A DNA stretch of 43,363 bases from Candidatus Sungiibacteriota bacterium (lineage in GTDB: Bacteria > Patescibacteriota > Minisyncoccia > Sungbacterales > HO2-52-23): positions 1 through 43,363 of the forward strand of contig JACPMG010000023.1 in assembly GCA_016186095.1 (NCBI GenBank), given 5' to 3'. The position numbers and the translations under genes were made by a program. Positions within the stretch are counted from its first letter, which is position 1. Each line of letters begins with the position of its first letter. Shown one piece after another: positions 40,518 to 43,363 of the stretch. Below the pieces are notes generated by a model. It ran no database searches. It was given only the letters and a program-made list of their open reading frames with translations, and was not told the origin of the DNA.

Positions 40518-40739
40518 TTACGCGAGCGATATGTCAATCTTTCTTCCTTTATGCTTATTTTTTGAATTTTCAATGCGGCGTATGAACATTTCCAGCTGAT
40601 CGGCTCGATACACGCGGTAATTATTTACCGGGTTGCGGTAGGAGGTAAGTATCCCTTTTTTGTCCCAGTTGCGAAGTGTCAAGGGGGAAACACGTAAAAT
40701 TTCCGCCGCTTCTCTTATAGTTATGAATTTCCTCTCCAT
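40518..40739 (-). CDS. Small MerR/excisionase-like helix-turn-helix regulator
   Basis: 73 residues. TIREAAEILRVSPLTLRNWD and KKGILTSYRNPVNNYRVYRA are the HTH and wing of MerR/HTH_17 proteins; there is no effector domain. A basic tail (KNKHKGRKIDISLA) follows. It probably binds DNA as a dimer or multimer. It is divergent from the giant surface protein, which itself begins with a related HTH domain; three AAACCTT half-sites lie just upstream of its start, consistent with autoregulation. Confidence 0.8.
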   Translation of the reverse strand: MERKFITIREAAEILRVSPLTLRNWDKKGILTSYRNPVNNYRVYRADQLEMFIRRIENSKNKHKGRKIDISLA

Positions 40740-40947
40740 TTTGAAACCTTACAAAACCTTGATAGCCGATACGCCTTATTTATTAAGGTTTATCAACGTT
40801 TAGCAATTGTTTTATATACTGCCGACTTTCTAAAGAAATTATGTTCTGTTGAATGGCGACGCGCAAGTCTAAGTTATCCACAGATAAAGACCGAAAAATC
40901 ATAACACCTATGTTACAATGAAATAAAGATATTCACAGCCATCCGAT
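40740..40947. promoter_or_regulatory. Divergent control region between the HTH gene and the surface protein gene
   Basis: AAACCTT at 40744-40750 and 40754-40760 and its complement AAGGTTT at 40785-40791, with TTGATA/TATCAA next to two of them, form candidate operators. A TACAAT (40914-40919) about 29 nt before the ATG at 40948 is a possible -10 box without a good -35. A single TTATCCACA (40874-40882) matches a DnaA box. Confidence 0.4.
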
Positions 40948-43363
40948 ATGCTATCCGATAATGAAAAATTTATTTCACTTGCCGAAGCGGCTCAAGGAAC
41001 TCCATACTCGCAGGAGTATTTAAGTTTGCTCGCGCGCAAGGGAAAACTTCCGGCAAAAAAAGTTGGCCGTAATTGGTATGCTACTAAACTTGCCGTTGCC
41101 AACTATCTGGATGAACAAAAGATTAAACTTCTTGAGCTTGCCGCCCAGCGAAGCGGGGCGAGCCTCGCTCTTCCAGAGCGGGAGGAAAAATCTGCCATAT
41201 CCGATATAAAGCCCCATATCGTATCGGATATGCCTCGCAATCTAACTTCGCCTGTCACGGCCGAGATTGATGCGCGGAGTAGAAGACGATTTATCTTAGA
41301 GGAAGTCCACGAAGATCAAGACTGGGAGGCTGTACCGTTTCTCTATAGGATATTTTCTTCGCCAACCCTTCGTATTTTTTTCTATATCATCGGGCATTCC
41401 TTTTTGGCCGGTACCATACTCTCTGGTTTTTTTGTTCTGGGAGTTTTTGGGATGAACCTTGTGAATGAAAAGTCTCTGGAATTCGCTCAGCAAAAATCGC
41501 AGCGCGATCTGCAATATTTTGCGGCGGTAGCCGGGGAGCGGATCGGGATTTTGGAATTTACCCAAAACCGTCTTAGAATTTTTGCCGGCGCGTTGAGAGA
41601 TACCGGAGAGATGGTTGCCAACGCCATTCTTGAATTAACGGGCTCGCCGATAAATACATTACAACCCTTGCTTTCTGTTCCGTCGTCTCCGTCTCCGGCA
41701 ATAGTAGAGGAACCCGTGGCAGAAGAAGTCGATGTTGGCAGAAAAGCGCCGAGCGTTGAAGAGCCTCGTGAGGCCGTGTTGAAGTCCGACTTCGGAAGAA
41801 AAGAAGTCGGACTTCAAGAGGTTCGCGAGATTATAATTCCTGCTGATTTCGCGGCGGCCAAGGCTGATATCCTTTTGAATGTAGAGAAAACTAATAAATC
41901 TATTCGCGAAAGGTTTGATAAGGCGATTGATGACTTGACCTTCAAACTCTCGCGTACCTCAAGCCGCGCGGAATCCTCTATCCAGATGGTTACGCTTTCG
42001 CAAAAAATTGACCAGTTAGACGGCGCAACTTTAAAAAATGTCACTTTCTCAGGAGCGTCCGGTTTAACGGATAATGACATACCCAATAACATCACCGTAA
42101 TAGGTTCGCAATCTTTTTCTGGTCTTACCCTTTCCGGGGATTTTACCACTTCCGGAGATTTGACTTTTTCCTCCAGCGCCACCACCACCATTCCAGCATC
42201 AGCGGTCAATGCTTTCTCCATCGCCACCTCCAGCACCGCAGTACCTTTTATGACTTTTGATACCTCTAACTACCGCGTGGGTATAGGAACGTCTACGCCG
42301 GGGACAACTTTCTCCGTAGGAGGCAATGCTTTAATCTCCGGTACTCTTGATGTCGGCGGAGTTTTTCGCGCTAATTCTAGCTCCCTTACCGTAAACAACA
42401 TTCCTTCAACCGCCCACTCCTTTTCCACCTGGGCCGTAAACAGCGAAGCGGCCAATGCCACCACCTCTTCTCTGATAATAAATCCCTCTTCTGCCGGCAC
42501 TGACACCAACTTGTTTGGTTTAATGGTTGCCGATAATGTAAAATTTCTGGTGGACGCGGAGGGAGATACTTTTGTCAATTCCCTGACCTCGGCCGGTTCA
42601 GTAACCGTGGCCTCCACCAGCGCCTCCTCTCTTCTCATTGAAGGCTCCACCTACGTTGGAGATGCCATCACCGACCTTTTTTCCGTAAACTCCGGCAACA
42701 TCTTCTTTAACAACCGGGCCACAAGCACCATCATCGACAACACCATCAATGCCTTTTCCCTGGCTACTTCTTCCACCGGCATTCCTCTTTTCTCCCTAGA
42801 CACCGCTCAAGGAGGAAGAGTAGGCATAGGCACCACTTCTCCCTGGGGCATATTCTCTCTCAACCCCACGGCTTTAATTGGAACCGGGCCTCAATTGGTA
42901 GTTGGCTCCTCGTCAGCCACCAGCTTCTTAATCTCCAACGCGGGCAACGTCGGCATCGGAACCACCAGCCCGGGAACACTTCTTTCTATCGGCGGCTCGG
43001 TTTTTCTTGGCGCCTCAGCCGGAGGCGGAACCGTAGGAGGTCTAGGCGTAGGCAGAGCCACCACCACCCAAGGAGTATTAGAAACCACTGGGGCAGGATC
43101 CATAGGAGGGGCATTGTCAGTATCGGGCATAACAAACCTCGCCACCGGAAACACCTATCAAATCGCCGGAACCGATGTTCTCTCCAACAACACTCTTGGC
43201 TCAGGAGTTCTGACCTCCTCTCTAACCAGCGTGGGAGCATTATCTTCAGGATCATTGGCCGCGGGATTCGGCTCCATTATGATAAACAGCGCCTCCTCAA
43301 CCATCACCAACCTAAGTTCCCTTTTCTCCACCTCCACCCAAGCTACTTCTACCTATCTTGCGG
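40948..43363 (+). CDS. Giant HTH-transmembrane-surface protein, N-terminal part (runs off the window)
   Basis: At least 805 codons open to the window edge. Residues 5-55 (FISLAEAAQGTPYSQEYLSL to VGRNWYATKLAVANYLDEQ) form an excisionase-like HTH. After a charged linker, a transmembrane helix lies at about 143-171 (YIIGHSFLAGTILSGFFVLG). Then come a helical, probably coiled-coil stretch (about 172-370) and, from about 380, Ser/Thr/Gly-rich beta repeats with the recurrent VGIGTSTP (444), VGIGTTSP (625) and VGIGTTSP (668), as in phage-fibre-like and adhesin proteins. The HTH would be cytosolic and the repeats outside. Codon use shifts to C-rich codons (ACC, TCC, GCC, AAC) in the repeat part. Confidence 0.85.
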   Translation, partial: MLSDNEKFISLAEAAQGTPYSQEYLSLLARKGKLPAKKVGRNWYATKLAVANYLDEQKIKLLELAAQRSGASLALPEREEKSAISDIKPHIVSDMPRNLTSPVTAEIDARSRRRFILEEVHEDQDWEAVPFLYRIFSSPTLRIFFYIIGHSFLAGTILSGFFVLGVFGMNLVNEKSLEFAQQKSQRDLQYFAAVAGERIGILEFTQNRLRIFAGALRDTGEMVANAILELTGSPINTLQPLLSVPSSPSPAIVEEPVAEEVDVGRKAPSVEEPREAVLKSDFGRKEVGLQEVREIIIPADFAAAKADILLNVEKTNKSIRERFDKAIDDLTFKLSRTSSRAESSIQMVTLSQKIDQLDGATLKNVTFSGASGLTDNDIPNNITVIGSQSFSGLTLSGDFTTSGDLTFSSSATTTIPASAVNAFSIATSSTAVPFMTFDTSNYRVGIGTSTPGTTFSVGGNALISGTLDVGGVFRANSSSLTVNNIPSTAHSFSTWAVNSEAANATTSSLIINPSSAGTDTNLFGLMVADNVKFLVDAEGDTFVNSLTSAGSVTVASTSASSLLIEGSTYVGDAITDLFSVNSGNIFFNNRATSTIIDNTINAFSLATSSTGIPLFSLDTAQGGRVGIGTTSPWGIFSLNPTALIGTGPQLVVGSSSATSFLISNAGNVGIGTTSPGTLLSIGGSVFLGASAGGGTVGGLGVGRATTTQGVLETTGAGSIGGALSVSGITNLATGNTYQIAGTDVLSNNTLGSGVLTSSLTSVGALSSGSLAAGFGSIMINSASSTITNLSSLFSTSTQATSTYLA

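Follow-up and report, generated by a model that had tools for sequence, protein, structure and literature searches.

The window and its giant open reading frame

The window analyzed here is the whole of one contig (C13, 43363 bases) from a 680-kb genome that is 92% complete and that belongs to a tiny, probably host-dependent bacterium. Its last gene (40948-43362, + strand) is open for 805 aa and exits at the contig end with its 3' end missing; the preliminary description had rightly read it as a single uninterrupted frame leaving the window. Because the window is the entire contig, the cut is an end of the assembly, and the complete protein is longer than 805 aa. The features of the gene and of the region preceding it are listed below (HTH, helix-turn-helix; TM, transmembrane).

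40518..40739, - strand: stand-alone MerR-type HTH protein, 73 aa, divergent (PF00376, E=1.4e-11)
40744..40760, no strand: direct repeat AAACCTT-N3-AAACCTT, likely the own site of the MerR-type gene (word enrichment upstream of MerR-type genes)
40874..40882, + strand: DnaA-box match TTATCCACA (7-mer comparison, counts at this promoter type)
40914..40919, + strand: TACAAT, a possible -10 box that follows the DnaA-box match and precedes the operator (by eye)
40941..40959 (40941-40947, 40953-40959), no strand: candidate operator pair ATCCGAT-ATGCT-ATCCGAT, 12-bp spacing, spanning the start codon (motif)
40948..43362, + strand: HTH-TM-fibre protein gene (ORF, 805 aa up to the contig end)
40960..41121, + strand: winged HTH, residues 5-58 (Pfam, conserved profile, AlphaFold, Foldseek)
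41199..41229 (41199-41205, 41223-41229), no strand: candidate operator pair ATCCGAT-N17-ATCGGAT, 24-bp spacing as in Fic genes, inside the coding region (motif)
41374..41460, + strand: single TM helix, residues 143-171 (hydrophobicity; N-in by the positive-inside rule in relatives)
41461..42009, + strand: linker and putative helical stalk, residues 172-354 (sequence only)
42010..43362, + strand: GIGTTSP-type fibre repeats, residues about 355-805 (sequence; paralogous fragments in the same genome)

The gene is not an isolated case. At contig ends of the same genome lie three pieces of similar fibre genes, open on the 5' side, any of which may continue the cut gene, the repeats allowing no safe choice among them; the HTH is present in 33 of 55 relatives whose genomes were searched, and a different query matched it in 179 of the 384 genomes of the class, across which comparison indicates that the HTH-TM-fibre architecture is common. 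Complete versions in the fetched loci measure 1522 to 3330 aa, and open frames reach 6621 aa. The N-terminal 211 aa, used as a protein query against the genome contigs, returned no match; an alignment query did match. A scan of viral contigs gave no match, and there is therefore no sign of a phage gene. Two HTHs in tandem precede the membrane helix at L128, L129 and L146, and in an open frame of 4602 aa in G102. An intein/Hint-type domain (residues about 890-1226; PF14890, E=6e-18) is lodged within the giant HTH-TM fibre protein of L041:1-3963(-).

The divergent neighbour had been described as a free-standing HTH of the same type as that of the giant protein. This is wrong at the family level: it is a PF00376 protein, and the profile of the giant protein's HTH does not match it. 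A homologue of this neighbour occurs in 23 of 43 loci, directly upstream and divergent in 20 of them, and the MerR-type genes have an upstream word of their own, AAACCTTA, with AACCTTA/AAACCTT enriched there. By these comparisons it is a member of a different family, yet a conserved neighbour. A signal peptidase I gene is found upstream of HTH-TM genes in 12 of the 43 loci; it is directly upstream on the same strand, with a gap of 211-469 bp, at L088, L090, L095, L096, L102, L104, L117, L124, L132, L138 and L140.

In another setting (L080:10001-19983, also L076, L086, L089, L098 and L107), the HTH-TM head gene opens a second F1-like ATPase operon. There the HTH-TM head encoded by the first gene is followed by a G2-like domain and then by a 2-TM hairpin that resembles a c subunit and in which, by eye, Thr occupies the usual acidic site; alpha, beta, gamma and epsilon are recognized by Pfam, the last gene is large and fibre-like, and the operon showed neither an a subunit nor a separate c subunit. 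Most of the genomes concerned have an ordinary ATP synthase elsewhere. The layout resembles that of the F1-like X0 ATPases of mycoplasmas, which were said to be without equivalent in other bacteria (PMC3369863).

DNA-binding head, membrane helix and fibre

Against Pfam, the head of the window protein matches HTH_17 over residues 9-57, weakly (E=0.003, 18.3 bits, below the cutoff of 27), and the relatives L057 (28.3 bits) and L039 (27.6 bits) exceed that cutoff; its type is HTH_17, and not HTH_25, the MreB-binding type of RodZ. The profile is strongly conserved among relatives, a conservation that stems partly from the selection of matches, as the HTH motif belonged to the search pattern, which does not apply to its co-occurrence with Fic. 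The AlphaFold model is a winged HTH predicted with confidence (pLDDT 91.8), and Foldseek aligns this model at a probability of 0.99, with E-values of only 0.08-0.16, to 8dgl, 4j2n and 6ama (RdfS, Pukovnik Xis and BldC-DNA); a sequence search of the PDB with the HTH profile found no real match. Profile, model and fold matches together bear out the excisionase-like HTH initially placed at residues 5-55. Its recognition helix is YSQEYLSLLARKGKL and its wing KKVGRNWYAT. The module, of consensus TPYSQEYLSLLARKGKLxAxKxGRNWYTT, is met before a TM helix, as stand-alone proteins of 76-83 aa, or in Fic proteins, of which it forms the C-terminal domain in archaea, Chloroflexota, Omnitrophota, Elusimicrobia and others. 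In nearly all Patescibacterial copies, one hydrophobic helix comes next.

This helix was evaluated on the GES scale with shuffles of each protein; a plain Kyte-Doolittle threshold did not tell real and shuffled sequences apart. The segment 143-171 of the window protein stands out from shuffles of the same residues (p=0.015), and 32 of 41 proteins individually do so at p<=0.05, so that the helix proposed from the window is retained and is shared by most homologues. Lys and Arg lie mostly on its N-terminal side (35 vs 5 of 53), which argues for an N-in topology. The predicted arrangement, a cytoplasmic DNA-binding domain followed by one TM helix, is that of a transmembrane one-component regulator.

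Beyond the membrane, the GIGTTSP-type repeats reported earlier are indeed there: three of the form GIGT(S/T)(T/S)P are visible in the window protein (VGIGTSTPG, VGIGTTSPW and VGIGTTSPG). Complete fibre proteins terminate in Pro/Glu/Thr-rich tails, and no second anchor was seen in them. A G2-like domain lies near the C-terminus of several relatives, and also in a 3' fragment from the same genome. The C-terminal domain of the relatives has no Pfam match; the best match of its AlphaFold model is gp12 of phage phi29, in its C-terminal fragment (E=1.6e-4), followed by phage capsid decoration proteins. Given this likeness to a phage fold, the outside part is likely to be trimeric and phage-fibre-like. 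The proteins thus recall phage fibres of the phi29 gp12/Peptidase_G2 type, with their intramolecular chaperone-like domain, but differ from them in being cellular, membrane-anchored and equipped with a DNA-binding head. Because the phage chaperone domain is self-cleaving, and because stand-alone HTH relatives exist, one could imagine a membrane-released transcription factor, in which cleavage frees the HTH to work as an ordinary soluble repressor; the chaperone-like domain is however outside, far from the TM helix, and we regard such a release as improbable.

Giant membrane proteins have been seen in a host-dependent CPR bacterium, Vampirococcus lugosii, whose membrane-located proteins of 1392-4163 aa were proposed to serve host attachment (PMC8080830). 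Unlike in the HTH-TM-fibre proteins, no DNA-binding head is mentioned for them, and the word 'helix-turn-helix' is absent from the text of that report. In the genome of the window, L068:5706-8609(+) (contig C32) encodes a protein of 967 aa that has a G2-like domain and, at its N-terminus, a signal-like helix, and that lacks the HTH; fibre-type proteins lacking the DNA head therefore exist in the same genome.

A paired DNA word at the gene start

The first clue to a binding site came from the intergenic regions of TM genes with a MerR-type neighbour, where ATCCGATA...TATCGGAT recurs near the start. Motifs were counted within -300..+60 of gene starts, with ORFs of the same loci as controls. ATC[CG]GAT is found at the start of 34 of 41 TM genes and 28 of 29 Fic-HTH genes, vs 30 of 572 control ORFs, and it is paired in 25/41, 24/29 and 1/572, respectively. 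The Fic set had played no part in finding this word, and when 7-mers are compared without bias, TATCGGA and ATCCGAT come out on top in the TM and Fic sets separately; stand-alone HTH genes carry the same motif at their start in three cases out of four. Since the HTH is the only thing that Fic and fibre genes have in common, it should be the reader of the DNA. In TM genes the spacing is mostly 12 bp (ATCCGATA-N3-TATCGGAT), and the pair lies downstream of the -10 and may precede the ORF by as much as 300 bp. In Fic genes the form is ATCGGAT-N17-ATCCGAT, with 24-bp spacing, and many of the bacterial pairs flank a TATAAT-like box.

Exceptions follow the protein to some extent. Seven of the 41 TM genes are without ATC[CG]GAT, and most of these seven, not all, carry a variant HTH. 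Where a TM gene encodes a wing devoid of Arg/Lys (DNT, KNT, GNV, NGV), TGCCGATA half-sites are present in 5/6 cases vs 4/87 (p=1e-5), and the RFLIF helix subfamily (recognition helix SQDYLRFLIFKKKL) has AAACGATA half-sites in 4/5 vs 4/87 (p=1e-4), p-values that are too small and indicative only, as the grouping was made with the data already in view and the genes are related. No ATCCGATA occurs in the latter subfamily, and CGATA is constant across the half-site variants. This comparative evidence indicates that the HTH is sequence-specific for paired TATC[CG]GATA at the start of its own gene. The conserved operator, its sharing with Fic genes and its covariation with wing and helix across homologues lend strong support to the view of the preliminary description that the HTH faces the chromosome and is linked to gene control. 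RodZ offers a known case of an HTH that is a cytoplasmic protein-binding or anchoring module. With this precedent, and with the weak Pfam score of the window HTH, a head that anchors proteins and does not read DNA could be envisaged; it is nevertheless very improbable, given that the operator is shared with Fic genes, that half-sites covary with wing and helix, and that the fibre protein of L068 has no HTH, so that anchoring does not need one.

Further elements accompany the operator in part of the genes. A DnaA-box match, TTATCCACA, lies upstream of it in 17/41 TM genes vs 10/301 controls and 0/29 Fic genes; in the window no + strand promoter was listed by a consensus promoter scan of the region. 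An idea that the gene marks oriC, raised by the DnaA boxes and by two closed genomes with the gene near coordinate 1, was dropped, dnaA being far off (dnaA distance check in closed genomes: 484.7 kb vs 921.9 kb in G003, 386 kb vs 3.3 kb in G122). Between the operator and the start codon, four Yanofskybacteria loci (L103, L106, L091, L112) share a leader of about 200 nt that is GC-rich and stem-like; an Rfam search for a known RNA in this long 5' leader (L106) gave no match.

Genome-wide, the pair is rare. The 680-kb genome has four paired sites, two at gene 40948-43362 and two inside unrelated coding sequences, and in the 55 relatives pairs away from HTH genes are in coding sequence or have no nearby ORF. 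On this survey the operator appears essentially private to the HTH-TM-fibre gene, and a regulon was discarded as a reading. The scarcity of other pairs beyond chance coding matches points to self-control and not to a broad host-contact regulon. This bears on the likeness to ToxR, CadC and TcpP, members of a known and widespread class of transmembrane transcription regulators (PMC10269533), with which the proteins share a cytoplasmic HTH, one TM helix, an extracytoplasmic domain and a specific DNA site. The text of that survey contains neither 'Patescibacteria' nor 'candidate phyla'. The ectodomain of ToxR, CadC and TcpP is a small sensor, whereas here it is a giant fibre of up to thousands of aa; the HTH is Xis/MerR-like (HTH_17) and not ToxR-type, and its own gene is the only clear target. 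A sensor of that kind, in which binding of the fibre to a host cell alters or pulls the HTH and so switches transcription, its own gene included, would suit the topology, the specific operator and the wide distribution of such regulators; with clear paired sites only at the own gene there is no regulon to switch, and we think it rather unlikely.

The closest experimental precedent for such an operator comes from Fic proteins. CccR, a Fic-HTH protein, protects AGATAATCAT-N26-ATGATAATCT inverted repeats near the -35/-10 of its own promoter and was shown experimentally to repress it via the HTH (PMC9755527), and CbFic2 binds DNA through its HTH (PMC10628234). The proteins studied here are like CccR in having an inverted-repeat operator at their own promoter and, as proposed, autorepression by the HTH; the HTH sequence and the operator words of the fibre proteins recur in the Fic relatives detected in this analysis. 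Fic-HTH proteins differ in being soluble AMP-transfer enzymes with a C-terminal HTH, and CccR reads AGATAATCAT-N26 instead. Fic-HTH genes of archaea and Chloroflexota (L084, L087, L092, L097, L109, L133, L134 and others), one of them from a named strain, Methanolobus vulcani B1d, bear the operator word, in most cases in the form ATCGGAT-N17-ATCCGAT in the promoter; its presence there predicts their autorepression.

Probable control of a surface fibre by its own head

We consider it reasonably likely, and the best explanation of these data, that the gene encodes a membrane-tethered giant fibre whose HTH binds the operator of its own gene and represses it. The architecture and the link between HTH and operator are drawn from comparative sequence evidence, from which we infer autorepression exerted from the membrane. 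A single-pass, N-in protein would hold a giant phage-fibre-like structure outside and a sequence-specific winged HTH inside, and the fibre molecules borne by the membrane would reach back to their own operator. As this operator covers the start codon and follows closely on the likely -10 box, binding of the HTH there would shut transcription off. The protein is probably an autorepressor: repression is preferred to activation from the position of the site and the precedent of CccR, and as Fic pairs (24 bp) bracket the -10 and TM pairs (12 bp) are downstream of it, the effect may differ between the two. If the fibre is trimeric, several HTH heads could jointly occupy the paired sites. Feedback by the product would set the number of very costly surface fibres, and negative feedback fits because each copy costs thousands of residues; loss or pulling of a fibre could relieve repression.

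The same elements may be read differently. An operator at the gene start, a membrane anchor and an extreme protein length would also agree with a gene tether (self-transertion), in which the main task of the HTH is to keep its own locus at the membrane, allowing the fibre to be transcribed, translated and exported at one place, repression being secondary; membrane-bound regulators are reported to drive transertion for the T3SS2 of Vibrio parahaemolyticus (PMC9977878). The start motif is however shared by stand-alone HTH genes (3/4) and by soluble Fic genes, so the operator needs no membrane anchor, and we judge a predominantly tethering role unlikely. There is also a small chance that autorepression and tethering combine in a mechanical self-switch: the HTH heads would keep their own gene at the membrane beneath the fibre base and so link transcription, translation and export of the giant chain, until contact with the outside fibre, or its loss, detaches the heads from the operator by pulling and synthesis begins anew. 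If so, the surface structure would count and replace itself without any other regulator.

Transmembrane transcription regulators and giant CPR membrane proteins are already known. In literature searches we found neither the motif words nor an HTH-bearing CPR surface fibre ('TATCCGATA' matched unrelated sequence strings), nor the HTH-TM-fibre combination, its operator, its sharing with Fic or a rule relating helix and wing to the site.

Patescibacteria account for much of bacterial diversity, and host cells are where most of them live; to our knowledge, how their attachment structures are controlled is not known. For about half of the genomes sampled in the class, the present comparisons would name a specific regulator together with its DNA site and part of its recognition code, and they suggest that a surface fibre, a structural protein, can regulate its own transcription. 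One DNA-reading module, together with its operator, would be common to bacterial fibre proteins and to Fic enzymes of archaea and Chloroflexota.
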